Origin: Halobaculum marinum
GTDB lineage: Archaea; Halobacteriota; Halobacteria; Halobacteriales; Haloferacaceae
Length of the DNA stretch: 64,000 nucleotides
Reading direction: 5' to 3'
Assembly (NCBI RefSeq): GCF_029338555.1
Contig: NZ_CP119989.1
Span: forward strand, 2,294,001-2,358,000
A model generated the notes under the pieces. That model worked only from the letters and a program-made list of their open reading frames with translations, did no database searches and had not been told where the DNA came from. Positions 1,647 through 36,193 of this stretch are shown in pieces (within the stretch, counting starts at the first letter, position 1; every line of letters starts with the position of its first letter). A program made the translations under genes and the position numbers.

Positions 1647-3901
1647 GCGGCGACGAGGAACTCGCGAAGGACCTCGGCCTGCTGTCGGCGCTGACCATCG
1701 GCGTCGGGACGATGATCGGCGCCGGCATCTTCGTGTTGCCCGGGCAAGCGGCCGCCGCCGCGGGCCCGGCCGTGGCGCTGTCGTTCGTCATCGGGGGCGT
1801 CATCTCGCTGTTCACGGCGCTGTCCGCCAGCGAGTTGGGGACAGCGATGCCGAAAGCGGGCGGCAGCTACTACTACGTCAACCACGCGCTCGGGCCGGTG
1901 TTCGGCTCCGTCGCGGGCTGGGGCAACTGGATGGGGCTGGCGTTCGCCTCGGCGTTCTACACACTCGGATTCGGCGAGTACCTCGCGACGTTCCTCCCGA
2001 TCCCGAGCGTCTCGCTTGGGCTGGTCACGCTGTCGTCGTTCCAGATCGGCGCGCTACTCGCCGGGGCCACGTTCATCCTGGTGAACTACGTCGGCGCGAA
2101 AGAGACCGGGCGACTCCAGGTCGTCATCGTCGTCGCGCTCGTGTCGATCCTCACCGCGTTCTCCGTTCTCGGATTCCTGCAGGCCGACCTCTCGACCCTG
2201 CGACCGTTCTTCCCAGCCGAGACGGGCGGTGCGTCCGCGATCCTCCCGGCGACGGGGCTGGTGTTCGTCTCCTTCCTCGGCTTCGCAAAGATCACGACGG
2301 TCGCCGAGGAACTGCGCAACCCCGGTCGGAACCTCCCGTTGGCGGTCGTCGGGAGCGTCGTCATCGTGACCGTGATGTACGCGATCATCATGGTCGTGCT
2401 GATGGGCGTGATCAACTGGCGCCAACTCGGCCCCGACTTCACCACGACGCCGGTGCTCGACGTGGCTGAGATCGCGTTCGGCACCGTCGGGCTGGCGGCG
2501 GTCGGCGTCGGCGTGCTGACGTTCGCGGGACTGCTCGCCACCGCCTCCTCGGCGAACGCGTCGATCCTCGCGTCGTCACGGATCAACTTCGCGATGGGGC
2601 GGGACAAACTGATCTCGGCGGCGCTGAACGACATCCACCCGCGCTTCGCTACGCCGTACCGCAGTATTGCGGTCACCGGCGCGCTGATCCTCCTGTTCAT
2701 CGTGATCGGCGACGTGAAGGTGCTCGCGAAGGCGGGCAGCGTGCTCCACCTCATCGTGTACGGCCTGCTCAACGTCGCGCTGATCGTGATGCGCGAGGCG
2801 TCGCCCGAGGAGTACGACCCCGACTTCGAGGTGCCGCTGTACCCGGTGGTGCCGATCCTCGGCGCGGTCACGTCGTTCGGCCTCATCGCGTTCATGGACA
2901 GAAACGAGATCGTACTCGCGTTACTGTTCGTCGCGGGCGGCCTCCTGTGGTACTTCCTGTACGCCCGGTCGCGCACCGACAAACAGGGCGTCCTCTCGGA
3001 GTACGTCCTCAGTCGGCGCGAGGAGTTCCCGGACACCGCTGTGTCGGCCGCGGCGGCAGCAAAGCCCGACAGCAATGACTACCGCGTGTTGGTCCCGCTG
3101 GCGAACCCCGCGAGCGAGGCCGACCTCATCGAGTTGGCGGCGAACATCGCTCGCGAGCGCGGCGGGTCGGTCGATGCCGTCCACATCGTCTCGGTGCCCG
3201 ACCAGACCTCGTTGGAGTACGCGGCCGAACACGTCCCCGAGTTCGACGACACGACCGACGAGTTGCTCGACCGCGCCCGCCTCGACGCCGAGGAGTTGGG
3301 CGTCCCGGTCGAGACGAGCACCGTCGTCTCCCACCAGTCGTTCGCGGAGGTGTTCGACGTGGCCCGCACCCACGACGCCGACCTCGTCGTGATGGGGTGG
3401 GGGCCGGAGGGGCACGGCGCGCCCGGTCGCGTCGAAGGGCGCATCGACGAACTCACGCAGGATCTGCCGTGCGACTTCCTCGTGCTCAAAGACCGCGGCT
3501 TCGACCCCGAGCGCGTGCTGGTGCCGACGGCGGGTGGGCCCGACTCGGACCTTTCTGCGGAGGTCGCCGGCTACCTCCGGTCCGCGTTCGACTCGCAGAT
3601 CAGCCTGCTGCACGTCGCCGACGATGTCGGCGCCGGCAAGGAGTTCCTCGCGACGTGGGCCAACGAGCACGGTCTCGGCGAGGCCGACCAGATCGTCGAG
3701 TCGGGCGAGGTCGAGGATGCGATCGCACGCCACGCCGCCGCCGCGTCGCTGGTGATCATCGGGGCGACCGAGCGCGGGATGCTCTCGCGACTCCTGAGCG
3801 GGGCGCTCGCGCTCGACGTCGTCGACGAGGTCGACTGCTCGGTGCTGCTGGCCGAGCGCCCGACGAACCGGAGCCTCCGCGACCGCCTGTTCGGTAGGTG
3901 A
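1643..3901 (+). CDS. APC-family amino acid permease fused to two USP domains
   Basis: This is a 752-aa membrane protein. Residues ~10-440 form about 12 hydrophobic segments of an amino acid/polyamine/organocation transporter. They begin with the diagnostic glycine-rich TM1 (GVGTMIGAGIFVLPGQAA). Two consecutive UspA-type cytoplasmic domains follow at ~475-610 (YRVLVPLANPASEADL) and ~619-745 (ERVLVPTAGGPDSDL). The last USP domain keeps a GATERGMLSRLLSG-like nucleotide-binding loop. This fusion is known in haloarchaea and is annotated as a cationic amino acid transporter-like protein. The substrate is uncertain. It is translationally coupled to the single-domain USP upstream, consistent with nucleotide- or stress-dependent control of uptake. 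Confidence 0.9.
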   Translation: MSGDEELAKDLGLLSALTIGVGTMIGAGIFVLPGQAAAAAGPAVALSFVIGGVISLFTALSASELGTAMPKAGGSYYYVNHALGPVFGSVAGWGNWMGLAFASAFYTLGFGEYLATFLPIPSVSLGLVTLSSFQIGALLAGATFILVNYVGAKETGRLQVVIVVALVSILTAFSVLGFLQADLSTLRPFFPAETGGASAILPATGLVFVSFLGFAKITTVAEELRNPGRNLPLAVVGSVVIVTVMYAIIMVVLMGVINWRQLGPDFTTTPVLDVAEIAFGTVGLAAVGVGVLTFAGLLATASSANASILASSRINFAMGRDKLISAALNDIHPRFATPYRSIAVTGALILLFIVIGDVKVLAKAGSVLHLIVYGLLNVALIVMREASPEEYDPDFEVPLYPVVPILGAVTSFGLIAFMDRNEIVLALLFVAGGLLWYFLYARSRTDKQGVLSEYVLSRREEFPDTAVSAAAAAKPDSNDYRVLVPLANPASEADLIELAANIARERGGSVDAVHIVSVPDQTSLEYAAEHVPEFDDTTDELLDRARLDAEELGVPVETSTVVSHQSFAEVFDVARTHDADLVVMGWGPEGHGAPGRVEGRIDELTQDLPCDFLVLKDRGFDPERVLVPTAGGPDSDLSAEVAGYLRSAFDSQISLLHVADDVGAGKEFLATWANEHGLGEADQIVESGEVEDAIARHAAAASLVIIGATERGMLSRLLSGALALDVVDEVDCSVLLAERPTNRSLRDRLFGR

Positions 3902-32142: not shown

Positions 32143-32423
32143 GAACGTAGTACGCTAGATGCTAACATATCTGTGCGTTCAGAACGAGTACACGATCGAC
32201 TCCGATGTGGCTAGATTGATCTGCGCCGTGGAGACGGACACAGACTAGCCTCGGGTGGGAACGCCAAACTGAGTCTCGCGGCGGTCGGGACGCGTCACCA
32301 TCCGTGGGGCTATCGAGCCTGGCATCTCCCCGAGGATCCGCTCAGTTTCCGTCACTCACCCTCTCCATCGTCGAGACGGGGGCGATGCGAACGCTTACTA
32401 CACACCTCTCGCACGCTTGCGCC
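32143..32423. other. Intergenic region between the Tat protein and the ABC permease
   Basis: This region holds the promoter of the - strand Tat-protein gene (TATA-like AGATATGTTAG near 32160-32172) and presumably that of the + strand permease. No RNA gene or additional ORF could be supported. Confidence 0.5.
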
Positions 32424-33320
32424 ATGTCGACGGACGACGGTCGGATCGCTCGCGCGGTCGACAACGCGCTCAGGTATCCCGGAGCCGCCTACCGACTCCT
32501 GTTCGCCGTCGTGGTGGGATTCTTCCTCGTGTTCGCGGGGTTCCCCATCTACTGGCTGCTCGTCGTCGCGGTGACGCCGACCGGGGCGGCGCCCGGACTC
32601 GTCCCCGAGTCGGTGACGGCGACGAACGTGCTCGTCGTCGTGGTCGGCTCGGAGTTCCTCCGGTACGTGTTCAACAGCCTCGTGATCGCGGCGTGCACGA
32701 CGGTCGCCGTGGTCGTCGTCGCGAGCCTCGCGGGCTACGCGTTCGGGCGACTGGAGTTCCCCGGGAAGCGAGCCCTCCTGATCGTGACGCTGTGTGTGGC
32801 GTACTTCCCGCCGGTTGCGTTCGTCATCCCGTTGTTCCGCTTGCTCTCTGGGGCGCTGGAGGTGTCGGTCTTCGGCGTCACCGCCACGAGTCCCGACCTG
32901 TTCAACACGCCCGCCGGTCCCGGCATCCCGCTGACGGGGTTGACGATGCCGCTGGCCATCTTCATCCTCACAACGTTCTTCGAGCGCATTCCGGACACCC
33001 TGGAGGACGCCGCCCGCGTCGAGGGGACGACTCGCCTCGGTGCGCTCGTCCGGGTGATCGTCCCGCTGTCGCGCCCGGGCATCGCGACTGCTGCGGTGCT
33101 CACCTTCCTCCAGGTGTACACGGAGTTCTTCTTCTCGCTGCTCATGACCAACGGCGACCCGCAGGACTGGGCGCCGATCGTCCCGGTTATTCGGGGGCTC
33201 CGGAACGCCAACGCCTCGTTCGCCGCCGCGGCTGCGGTGATCGCACTCGTGCCCGTCGTGCTCCTGCTGGCGCTGGCAGACGACCACGTGGTGGCGGGGT
33301 TGACCGCTGGCTACCGGTGA
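32424..33320 (+). CDS. Orphan ABC transporter permease (MalG/carbohydrate type)
   Basis: The 298-aa protein starts at ATG 32424. Six TM helices and the cytoplasmic EAA loop (LEDAARVEGTTRLGALVRVI) mark it as a MalG-type permease that couples to an ATP-binding subunit. No partner permease, solute-binding protein or ATPase lies nearby. It may work with a distant system or be a relic of a lost operon. Confidence 0.88.
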   Translation: MSTDDGRIARAVDNALRYPGAAYRLLFAVVVGFFLVFAGFPIYWLLVVAVTPTGAAPGLVPESVTATNVLVVVVGSEFLRYVFNSLVIAACTTVAVVVVASLAGYAFGRLEFPGKRALLIVTLCVAYFPPVAFVIPLFRLLSGALEVSVFGVTATSPDLFNTPAGPGIPLTGLTMPLAIFILTTFFERIPDTLEDAARVEGTTRLGALVRVIVPLSRPGIATAAVLTFLQVYTEFFFSLLMTNGDPQDWAPIVPVIRGLRNANASFAAAAAVIALVPVVLLLALADDHVVAGLTAGYR

Positions 33321-33347: not shown

Positions 33348-34295
33348 TCACCACTCGTAGTCGGAGGCGTCCTCGGCGGCGTGGGCGCGCACCCACAACT
33401 CCCCGATGCGCGAGAGGCGCGTCCGGTAGGACTTTCCGTGGGCCTCCTGCTCGACGTACCCTTTCCCGCCCGGCCCGAGGCGGTCGACGTTGTAGATCAC
33501 TTTCGAGCGGAACGAGTCGGTGTACTCCTCGTCGAGTGTGCCCGCGAGCGCCTTCGCCAACTCGCTGACCGACTCGAACTCGCCCGCCTCGCCGAGTTTG
33601 AACAGGATCACCTCCTCGAACGGCTTCACGTTCGAGAAGGAGGCGACGGGGAGTTCGATGATGTGGCGCCCGTCGACCTCCTTGGCGCCGATGGTGGTGC
33701 CGCGCTCGTCGAACTCCGCGAGCAGGTCGGTCGCGGTGTCGAGGCGCTCGCGCACGCGGTCTGCGTCGACGCCCGCGACCGTCTTGGCCTCCTCGTCGGC
33801 GTCTCCCTCCGCACCGTCCAAGAGGTCGCGCAGCAGGTCGCGGTCCGCCCGCAGTTCCTCCGCCAATTCGGTCTCGAGGTACTTCTCGGGCGCCGTGTAG
33901 TACGTGTGGATGCGGTCGCGGTCGGCCTGCCGCTCGAGCGTGACGGAGTGGGCGGCAGTCGCGAACGCGAACGAGACGGGCCGCGGCATCGACGAGACGT
34001 TCACCCACACCTCGCGGTCGGCGTCCAACTCGGCGTTGATCAGGTCGTACGCCTGCTCGAAGGCGGCGTCGTAGTCGTACACGTCCGCGACGGCGACGCG
34101 CTCGGTCTCGGCGCCGAGCAGGTTCCGAAAGTCCGTCTCCAACTTCTTCGAGAGGTTCCGCGAGTACTCGACGTTCGCCTCGCTCCCGACGGCGCCCTCC
34201 AGCAGGACGACGCGGTCCACGTCGAACTGGTCGCGGACCAGCGGCGCGATGAGCCGGTCGTAGTCGAAGCCGACCGGGACGACGTGTGTCTGCAT
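33348..34295 (-). CDS. CARF-like transcription regulator (HFX_2341 family, DUF6293)
   Basis: The 315-aa protein starts at ATG 34295 (MQTHVVPVGFDYDRLIAPLV). The N-terminal half looks like the CARF Rossmann-type fold (VVLLEGAVGSEANVEYSRNL; EVWVNVSSMPRPVSFAFATA). The C-terminal half carries a winged-helix region (SELAKALAGTLDEEYTDSFRSKVIYNVDRL). Similar proteins in Haloferax are annotated HFX_2341 family regulators. CARF domains often bind cyclic oligoadenylates or related ligands; no CRISPR or cas gene is in this window. Confidence 0.82.
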   Translation of the reverse strand: MQTHVVPVGFDYDRLIAPLVRDQFDVDRVVLLEGAVGSEANVEYSRNLSKKLETDFRNLLGAETERVAVADVYDYDAAFEQAYDLINAELDADREVWVNVSSMPRPVSFAFATAAHSVTLERQADRDRIHTYYTAPEKYLETELAEELRADRDLLRDLLDGAEGDADEEAKTVAGVDADRVRERLDTATDLLAEFDERGTTIGAKEVDGRHIIELPVASFSNVKPFEEVILFKLGEAGEFESVSELAKALAGTLDEEYTDSFRSKVIYNVDRLGPGGKGYVEQEAHGKSYRTRLSRIGELWVRAHAAEDASDYEW

Positions 34296-34343
34296 TCGTT
34301 CGACAGGTGCGGGCGGGCGTGGCAAAAGGGTGCCGTGGTCGGG

Positions 34344-35837
34344 TCAGTCCGCGCTCACGCCGAACTTCTCGGCGTTCTCGCCCGGCGAAGCCGTCGTCAC
34401 GGCGGAGACGCCGACGGTCACCACCAGCGAGAGGAGCATACACCACAGCGCGTAGTCCCACGTCAGGTACGTCGTCGAGAGGAACGCCACGTCGCTGACG
34501 AACAGCGCGTGTGGGATGTACACGGCCTCGGCGGCGACGATTCCGGCGATCATCCCGGACTTCGTCGTCCGCGACCAGTAGAGCGCGAGGATGAGGGGAA
34601 TGGTCAACTGGGCGTACCCGCCGAACGCCGTGTCGCCGAGCGTGACGAGCACGTCGAGCCCACCCCCGCCGCCGACAAGGAGGGAAGCCGCGAACGTCGA
34701 CGCCGCGAACACGGCGACGCCGACGCGTGCGATCCACCCCTCGCGGTCGTCGCTCACGTCGGGGTCGACGAACGGGCGGTACAGGTCCCGCGTGAAGTAC
34801 GACGACCCCGAGAGGAGCATCGAGTCCGATGAGGACATCATCGCCGCCAGCGCGCCAGCGATGACGAGCGCCGCGAACCACGCCGGCGTGTACTCGTTCA
34901 ACAGGACCGGGAGGACGTTGCTCCCGTCGGGCACCGTGATGCCGAGGCCGACCGCCCACGACCCGAGCAGGAACGCGGGGACGAACAGCAGCAGGACGAG
35001 GACGGGCCACAGCGCGAACGATCGCTTCAGCGTCCGCGCGTCGTCGGCCATGAAGAACCGCTGGTTCACCTGCGGGAACGCCGCGACGCCGAACGCGATG
35101 ACCACTGCGGTGCCGATCATCCACTGTGGCGAGTAGAGCCCGCCGCCCAGCGACGCGAACTCGGGGTTCGCCTGCGCCATCCCCGCGGTGAGCGCGGAGA
35201 CACCGCCGGCGGCTGAGGCGACCCACGCGACCGCCAGCCAGACGACGCCGAGCATGAACACGCCCTGCAGTGTGTCGGTCCACGCGACGCCCCGGAGTCC
35301 CGAGAGGGCGACGTACGCGACCATGAACACCGTGATCAGCGCCGCGCCGGCCCAGTACGGCACCGCGCCGTCGGTCAGCCCCACGAGCGCCTGCCCGGCG
35401 CCGATCTGCTGGAGCATCACGTACGGGAACAGCCACAGGAGGCTCACGCCTGCGACCAGTCCGCGGAGACCGCGCGAGCCGAAGCGGTCGCCGAGCATCT
35501 CGCCCAGCGTCACGTAGCCGTGAGCCTTCCCGACGAGCCACTGCTTGTAACCGATGGCGTACCACAGGAGCGCGAACAGGATGCCGTCCATCAGCCCCAT
35601 CACGAGGATCCACTCCGGCCCCGCGGCGAACGCGAGGTTGGGGCCGCCGAAGAAGGTGAACGCCGACAGCAGGGTCGCGAACGTCGTGAACAGGAGCACG
35701 ACGGTCCCCACCGACCGCGACGCGAGGTAGTAGTCCTCCGCCGAGCGGTCCGTCAACCGGTAGGCGACCAACCCGATTGCCAGCGTGATCAGCAGGTAGC
35801 CGAGCACGACCACCACCGAGGTGCCCAACTCAGCCAC
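34344..35837 (-). CDS. Sodium:solute symporter (SSS family)
   Basis: The 497-aa membrane protein starts at GTG 35837. It has ~13 TM helices. The SSS core motif YYLASRSVGTVVLLFTTFA and later GLRGVAWTDTLQGVFML are typical. The substrate is unknown; the family includes pantothenate, acetate and amino acid carriers. Its start overlaps the upstream DUF3311 gene by 8 bp, a pairing seen often for these symporters. Confidence 0.9.
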   Translation of the reverse strand: MAELGTSVVVVLGYLLITLAIGLVAYRLTDRSAEDYYLASRSVGTVVLLFTTFATLLSAFTFFGGPNLAFAAGPEWILVMGLMDGILFALLWYAIGYKQWLVGKAHGYVTLGEMLGDRFGSRGLRGLVAGVSLLWLFPYVMLQQIGAGQALVGLTDGAVPYWAGAALITVFMVAYVALSGLRGVAWTDTLQGVFMLGVVWLAVAWVASAAGGVSALTAGMAQANPEFASLGGGLYSPQWMIGTAVVIAFGVAAFPQVNQRFFMADDARTLKRSFALWPVLVLLLFVPAFLLGSWAVGLGITVPDGSNVLPVLLNEYTPAWFAALVIAGALAAMMSSSDSMLLSGSSYFTRDLYRPFVDPDVSDDREGWIARVGVAVFAASTFAASLLVGGGGGLDVLVTLGDTAFGGYAQLTIPLILALYWSRTTKSGMIAGIVAAEAVYIPHALFVSDVAFLSTTYLTWDYALWCMLLSLVVTVGVSAVTTASPGENAEKFGVSAD

Positions 35838-36057
35838 GGCGGATCACCTCGGCGTCGACGCCGCGGTCCCAGCCGCCGGTGCGCGTGAACGCGTAGAACG
35901 CGACGGTCGCCAGCACCATCCAGCCGACGTGCCACCACAGCCAGAGGGGGAGGCCAGCGACGACGGTCGCGTCGCCCCACAGGAACCACGGGATCGCGAA
36001 CGCCACGAGCACGGCGAACACGAGTACCCACAGCAGGTCCGATCGAGTGCGCGTCAT
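35830..36057 (-). CDS. DUF3311 small membrane partner of the symporter
   Basis: The ~75-aa protein starts at MTRTRSDLLWVLVFAVLVAFA. Longer starts at 36078 (ATG) or 36102 (GTG) are possible. Two TM helices flank a W-rich segment PLWLWWHVGWMVL. DUF3311 genes are commonly adjacent to SSS symporters and may be a small subunit or assembly factor. The reading frame overlaps the symporter start. Confidence 0.8.
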   Translation of the reverse strand: MTRTRSDLLWVLVFAVLVAFAIPWFLWGDATVVAGLPLWLWWHVGWMVLATVAFYAFTRTGGWDRGVDAEVIRRG

Positions 36058-36073
36058 CCCTCGGTGGTAGTAG

Positions 36074-36088
36074 TTCATGAACCATGAA
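36074..36088. promoter_or_regulatory. Inverted repeat TTCATG-aac-CATGAA
   Basis: This is a 15-bp inverted repeat in an AT-rich patch upstream of the DUF3311-symporter unit. It lies 17-31 nt before the ATG at 36057. It may be an operator, although it would fall inside the coding region if a longer start is used. A related gttcttcaatgaac lies at 36131-36144. Confidence 0.35.
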
Positions 36089-36193
36089 TGTTGTTCAATC
36101 ACTCGTCGGTTCGAGGTATCGAAGAGAATAGTTCTTCAATGAACGTGGGGCCGGTCACGCCGCTGTTGGGAGGGCCAGGACGCGCGACCACCC

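Follow-up and report, generated by a model that had tools for sequence, protein, structure and literature searches.

The gene at positions 33348..34295 (minus strand) of the window, a 64,000-nucleotide stretch of the Halobaculum marinum contig NZ_CP119989.1, is the Halobaculum-type orthologue of Haloferax mediterranei HFX_2341 (Crr), a CARF-winged-helix regulator of known family. Its 315 amino acid product represents a near-universal haloarchaeal regulator with a CARF-DUF7776-winged-helix architecture, which is likely to act as a dimeric repressor tuned by a host-made and probably non-CRISPR ligand. The family, fold, distribution and pocket substitutions of the regulator are documented by the present analysis.

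HFX_2341 of H. mediterranei was characterised in 2024, when HHpred indicated kinship with Csa3a and the family was also reported from CRISPR-negative species (PMC11434293). As described there, deletion altered the expression of many genes by RNA-seq; the change in cas genes was not significant by this method, cas1 and cas3 were elevated by qPCR, and overexpression resulted in cas gene repression. The authors caution that these effects are possibly indirect, and propose cAMP or c-di-AMP as the ligand, citing the essential c-di-AMP of H. volcanii. The core idea of our initial annotation, a CARF regulator with a ligand from outside CRISPR systems, is right in outline but not new, as it already appears in that study. 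New here are the class-wide distribution independent of cas1, the pocket substitutions and a recurrent insertion point at the gene start. The window protein shares with HFX_2341/Crr the equivalog family (NF051475), the CARF-wHTH architecture and the presence in CRISPR-negative species, and differs in the species of origin. To our knowledge, the window's own protein has not been the subject of an experiment.

Family assignment and predicted fold

The open reading frame begins with an ATG at position 34295 of the minus strand and was assigned by profile matches. The protein scores 579.4 bits against the NCBIfam model NF051475 (HFX_2341 family transcriptional regulator; curated equivalog cut-off 500), 97 bits against PF19810 (HFX_2341_N; cut-off 30) and 104.6 bits against PF24989 (DUF7776; cut-off 27), and since all three scores exceed the curated cut-offs the family match is far beyond chance. 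The PADLOC profile CARF3--CARF matches at 517 bits, and the closest named relative is from Halobaculum gomorrense (92%).

The CARF domain comprises residues 1–139 (33879..34295, minus strand), with PF19810 covering residues 3–139, and its predicted fold resembles those of Csa3, Cam1, Can2 and Csm6. It is followed by the DUF7776 linker region (residues 140–221; 33633..33878, minus strand), defined by the PF24989 match, and by a winged helix (residues 223–305; 33381..33629, minus strand) for which VIA-align returned a Z-score of 12.9 to Halobacterium RosR over model residues 217–312. Conservation is highest in the winged helix, with a mean column identity of 0.92 versus 0.89 in the CARF part, in an alignment of 63 sequences drawn from 62 of the 80 relatives' loci and the window.

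An AlphaFold2 model was built from the 63 aligned orthologues (mean pLDDT 70.9, pTM 0.59), in which the stretches of low confidence correspond to residues 102–104, 135–140, 197–221, 275–277 and 308–315. The top Foldseek match of the model is Csa3 (PDB code: 2wte), with an E-value of 1.9e-5 and TM-scores of 0.32 by query and 0.46 by target. With VIA-align, the Z-scores are 14.3 to cA4-bound Can2, 13.7 to Cam1 and 11.4–11.5 to Csa3; many CARF chains match approximately residues 1–136 of the model (Z 10–14), and RosR/MarR-like matches over residues 217–312 fall within the same range. The rmsd between the model and Csa3 over both domains amounts to 13–15, and the whole-model TM-score is low (0.32 by query), because the two domains are placed differently. 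The modelled structure supports a CARF Rossmann-like fold for the window protein. The initial annotation had proposed a member of the HFX_2341/DUF6293 family with a CARF-like half linked to a winged helix, and had named structure prediction as its test; the PADLOC CARF3 profile, Foldseek and VIA-align all bear this out, and the predicted structure does contain a CARF fold, with Csa3 as its best Foldseek match.

A search of PDB sequences with the window protein alone returned nothing at E 1. A profile of 33 diverse homologues gave only weak matches to the same sequences, the best being a MarR-like regulator and the CRISPR-associated 3qyf (both E 0.0012), with yeast ribosomal eS10 chains scoring close behind. 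Profile-profile comparison of the orthologue set with seven Csa3 proteins was likewise weak (probability 2%, E 0.024), and the Csa3 model TIGR01884 scored 17.4 bits against the window protein, below its cut-off of 60.2.

The CARF pocket and the distribution of the regulator

Binding of cA4 by Csa3Sso is abolished by the substitutions F10A, F14A, G96A and R98A, and cA4 motifs have been defined in the same work (PMC8844856). The first pocket motif of the window protein is V-G-F-D-Y-D-R (residues 8–14; 34254..34274, minus strand); G9, F10 and D/N11 are common to the regulator and Csa3, and Csa3 F14 is replaced by R14 in 63/63 sequences. In the second motif, N-V-S-S-M-P-R (residues 99–105; 33981..34001, minus strand), M103 and P104 stand in place of Csa3 G96 and M97, and R98 is kept as R105, again in all 63 sequences. 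Residues 9–11 (G-F-D) and 105 (R) are therefore invariantly much as in Csa3 (G-F-N/D and R), and invariance in 63/63 sequences extends over positions 9–14, 99, 103–105 and 137. E137 may be the counterpart of Csa3 E122.

The residue register was obtained by alignment to seven archaeal Csa3 proteins after checking the Csa3 chain's own numbering, and this comparison, weak overall (probability 2%), still aligns both motifs. Given the weak profile-profile score and a TIGR01884 score below its cut-off, support for the register comes from the two motifs together with two alignments and the fold match. The model is of low confidence at residues 102–104, which include the substituted M103 and P104. The CARF pattern (D/N)-X-(S/T)-X3-(R/K) of the beta4-alpha4 loop, as given in PMC8844856, is present in the window protein as N99-V-S101-S-M-P-R105. 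Residue 101 is S in 42 sequences, C in 15 and A in 6, so that the full pattern occurs in 42/63, and distant archaeal family members carry other versions of the loop (SSAPR/K, DAPR and STGxK). The GxS/T catalytic motif described for ring nucleases in PMC8844856 is absent, the loop that would correspond to it in the Csa3 register being G9-F10-D11 in 63/63 sequences. As R105 and the CARF pattern are kept, some cyclic oligonucleotide could still bind. The comparison supports a pocket that departs from the cA4-binding pattern of Csa3. In comparison to Csa3 (TIGR01884; Saccharolobus solfataricus, PDB codes: 2wte, 6w11 and 6wxq), the window protein has in common the CARF and winged-helix domains, G9-F10-D/N11 and the arginine R98/R105, and finds in it its best structural match; it differs in the changes F14 to R, G96 to M and M97 to P, in the extra DUF7776 linker, in its origin from a genome without Cas1 and in a TIGR01884 score below the cut-off.

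A protein search returned a match in 188 of 194 genomes of the class and in 65/65 genera (weakest best E-value 6.3e-81), a count of search matches and not of orthology established genome by genome. Cas1 was found in 77/194 of these genomes. The regulator was matched in 76/77 Cas1-positive and 112/117 Cas1-negative genomes (Fisher p 0.41), and there is no statistical association between the two across the 194; among the six genomes without a match to the regulator, only one (G171) carries Cas1. In a wider draw from the phylum, 56/295 genomes had a match over the family cut-off, all labelled as the window's own order. The Cas10 palm model PF22335 matched 0/194 class genomes and 5/14 control genomes. 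The Csm1 model TIGR02578 gave no match over its cut-off in the 194 genomes and weak matches (E 0.001 or better) in 120 of them, those listed lying in the N-terminal part; a divergent Cas10 could have escaped detection. The diadenylate cyclase (DAC) domain PF02457 is found over its cut-off in 194/194 genomes, including the six without an orthologue match.

Searches of the window's own genome yielded no Cas1 match, no Cas10 palm match and no Csm1 match over the cut-off, with a single 22-bit match to the N-terminal part of the Csm1 model. The initial description of a solitary regulator without CRISPR genes is accurate for this genome with respect to Cas1 and the Cas10 palm, but in H. mediterranei the orthologue represses cas genes when overexpressed. 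A PF19810 search of eight genomes, of which six had been picked as orthologue-negative, left only G108 without any match. HFX_2341-like homologues annotated as DUF6293 also occur on plasmids of Salinigranum rubrum (L239; NZ_CP026312.1), where the gene runs near or across the record start, and of Haloplanus sp. GX21 (L241; NZ_CP147875.1).

Gene neighbourhood, promoter and inserts at the gene start

The regulator gene lies 48 bp downstream of a sodium:solute symporter gene (34344..35837, minus strand; PF00474), with a DUF3311 small protein encoded further upstream on the same strand (35830..36102, minus strand; PF11755), and tail to tail with an ABC transporter permease gene (32304..33320, plus strand; PF00528); the profile matches confirm the transporter and ABC permease noted as neighbours at the outset. 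Of 71 loci with 5 kb or more of upstream DNA (70 relatives and the window), 37 have the symporter near the regulator, and the spacing between the two ranges from approximately 39 bp to more than 5 kb. In Haloarcula rara (L081) the symporter lies downstream instead of upstream, a possible rearrangement. Within the Halobaculum group, the upstream DNA of the window is collinear with 6/7 relatives to within 11–47 bp of the window ATG, H. gomorrense being the exception.

A TTTT at -32 to -29 of the ATG (34324..34327, minus strand) occupies the TATA position of a probable leaderless promoter and is kept in 5/7 Halobaculum-group relatives; it overlaps a T/A-rich peak that a set of 68 non-redundant upstream sequences shows at -30 to -26, along with CGT before the ATG. 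The 48 bp between symporter and regulator (34296-34343) contain CGGCACCCTTTT. The element CGGCAC, C or G, CTT upstream of the regulator is kept in 6/7 Halobaculum-group relatives; other genera have the CTGGT type instead.

Of 40 TATA-bearing promoters, 20 carry a dyad that spans the TATA box (GGT, TATA, ACC), versus 16/271 control sites. CTGGT is located upstream of TATA in 18/40 target sites versus 5/271 control sites and 0/44 leaderless-like control starts, counts in which related species are not independent and to which 40/80 loci, having no match to the TATA pattern applied, did not contribute. These sequences may mark a CTGGT-type autoregulatory operator, a reading that stays tentative because CTGGT is not present in the window's own promoter. 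When 17 genomes were scanned for the candidate operator pattern, six perfect sites were found, four at the regulator promoter and two in front of second copies of the gene start that are truncated. Allowing two mismatches gave 49 sites versus 77 for the reversed control, so that no wider regulon can be read from the pattern. Promoters may diverge where genes do not: H. gibbonsii and H. marisrubri share an identity of 0.99 over the first 300 nt of the gene versus 0.36 over the preceding 45 nt. Similar promoters also occur across genera, with values up to 0.76 outside the sister pair Haloarcula/Halomicroarcula in 66 named loci, drawn from 1956 pairs with no shuffled control.

The truncated second copies were first encountered in two genomes in the site scan; one further clear case, H. 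sulfurifontis (L044), and a weak second copy in L047 (33 nt at 88%) emerged when the named loci and the window were searched. A survey was made of 11–20 kb of DNA ending in the gene from 80 genomes, selected for where the gene lies on its contig and for coverage of genera; the three clear cases known beforehand were among them. In 5/80 genomes (L219, L229, L230, L284 and L305), the first 90-nt segment of the gene recurs upstream on the same strand (at least 40 nt and at least 90% identity), and each of the nine other 90-nt segments does so in 0/80. Treating segments as independent, the Fisher p is 9e-6 with all five cases and 0.0099 without the three known ones (2/77 versus 0/693). The exact overlaps of the repeats extend 39–58 nt into the gene and over 0–41 nt of promoter; the shortest repeated stretch corresponds to the first 39 nt of the window gene (34257..34295, minus strand), which is here a single copy and thus an empty site. 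Short direct repeats (36–150 nt, 1–12 kb apart) were also sought across these 80 stretches with a seed search, which returned 20 pairs in 10 loci; among these, the gene start is the only repeat recurring in more than one genome; the count was taken from the seed search because a strict BLAST filter recovers 2/5 of the gene-start repeats.

The copies lie 1.6–7.3 kb upstream of the intact gene and bracket AT-richer inserts, with a GC content of 0.45–0.60 versus 0.60–0.71 in their stretches. Comparison with uninterrupted relatives covered three of the five, L219, L229 and L230; in each, the sequence leading to the distal copy aligns collinearly with that of the relative as far as the relative's ATG (94%, 91% and 93%, respectively, over 3 kb). 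The inserts are flanked by direct repeats and, in the three cases compared, absent from close relatives, as would be expected of an integrated mobile element at the gene start. In 4/5 insert genomes the promoter of the intact gene differs from the displaced promoter, the exception being L230, where the repeat takes in the promoter as well.

Cargo frames were picked by hand. Their family matches comprise an FkbM methyltransferase in the L229 and L305 inserts, a weak sulfatase match in L229 (below cut-off), an ISH3 transposase in L305 and a histidine-kinase-like frame in L230 (all below family cut-offs); frames of the L219 insert have no family match. The 7.3 kb insert of L284 (L284:11755-19052; G114) holds a MAD2-like N6-DNA methylase (346 bits, short of the model cut-off), an extra TATA-binding protein (TBP) gene and two transposases, with weak matches to MAD5 (S-subunit) in two frames flanking an IS701 transposase.

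No integrase was found among insert frames of at least 80 aa with a home-made profile (18 frames of integrase loci). In 13 genomes, a set with three of the five insert-bearing ones (all but G114 and G016), there are 116 PF00589 matches, the nearest on the gene's contig being 17–18 kb downstream (G106). Separately, the Haloarcula rara locus L081 encodes a tyrosine recombinase (1935-3068) approximately 3–4 kb upstream of the regulator, with no second gene-start copy in the DNA examined. A viral origin of the inserts was also considered and rejected: no viral contig contained the gene start (two patterns) or a relative of the protein, no phage record matched one 63-base gene start, and of four matched plasmid records the two haloarchaeal ones hold homologous genes instead of attachment fragments, one across the record start, the other two being from Streptomyces.

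As no integrase was found in the inserts, site-specific integration at the gene start is a reading of these data and not a result; homologous exchange of cassettes via the shared gene start is the alternative. A review describes pTN3-like integrases acting on tRNA genes, where integration takes place in the 5' half and expression comes from the element, and also mentions att sites in archaeal protein-coding genes, including an AsnC-family regulator (PMC8371274). The inserts resemble the pTN3-like case in that the element brings a new promoter and start and the target gene stays intact, and differ in that the target is a protein-coding regulator gene and no integrase was found. Our literature searches turned up no publication that describes an insertion site at this gene.

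Proposed function and its alternatives

In H. marinum the regulator is most likely dimeric and would bind DNA near promoters, where it would mainly repress nutrient-transport and other genes, and occupancy of the CARF pocket by a small ligand made by the host would alter this binding. This ligand is unlikely to be a CRISPR cyclic oligoadenylate, because no Cas10 palm was found in the sampled class genomes and two residues required for cA4 binding by Csa3 are invariantly replaced. It is very unlikely that the protein is a Csa3-like cyclic-oligoadenylate sensor with the job of controlling CRISPR-Cas. Such a role would agree with Csa3 as the best Foldseek match, with the retention of G9-F10-D11 and R105 of the cA4 site and with the repression of cas genes by overexpressed HFX_2341 in H. 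mediterranei (PMC11434293), but the gene is matched in 112/117 Cas1-negative genomes, its own genome lacks Cas1, the Cas10 palm is found in 0/194 sampled genomes, and Csa3 F14 and G96 are replaced. That cyclic di-AMP is the ligand, linking osmotic state to the repression of transport genes, was proposed in PMC11434293 with reference to the essential c-di-AMP of H. volcanii, and the diadenylate cyclase domain is present in 194/194 genomes. However, a universal cyclase would fit any host ligand and does not single out this one, and the six genomes without an orthologue match carry the domain as well; we regard this assignment as somewhat unlikely.

A CARF half that serves dimerisation only and senses no ligand, in a repressor that is constitutively active and present at a level dictated by its promoter, would account for the loss of the phosphate-binding glycine, for the differing promoters of close relatives and for published cas effects that are dose-dependent, modest upon deletion versus strong upon overexpression (PMC11434293). 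We consider it unlikely nonetheless, as the invariance of positions 9–14, 99, 103–105 and 137 in 63/63 sequences is seemingly more than dimer packing needs. A local regulator of the adjoining symporter or permease is highly improbable: the symporter accompanies the gene in 37 of the 71 loci whose upstream DNA spans 5 kb or more, but it was not found within approximately 6 kb on each side in the other 34, its distance ranges from approximately 39 bp to more than 5 kb, it lies downstream in L081, and deletion of the orthologue changes many genes (PMC11434293). A repressor responding to a host-made ligand is the reading that we favour.

Mobile cassettes equipped with a promoter and first codons may in addition insert recurrently at the gene start, repeatedly resetting the expression of the global repressor, its cas repression included; the TATA dyad, seen in native and some acquired promoters, may be its own operator. 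This is a tentative proposal, to which we give somewhat less than even weight. The HFX_2341 locus, with a putative transposable element, has been published as the hottest site of self-spacer acquisition in H. mediterranei. A recurrent landing site, as suggested by inserts in other genomes, would explain that hotspot.

The pocket substitutions make a sharp prediction, namely that the protein does not bind cA4 in the manner of Csa3. A near-universal CARF protein, in a class in which no cyclic-oligoadenylate synthase domain was detected, makes the haloarchaea a good place to study CARF signalling outside CRISPR. If the gene start is a promoter-swapping insertion site, mobile DNA can shift the level of a global repressor without breaking its gene, and the published spacer-acquisition hotspot would receive a simple explanation.
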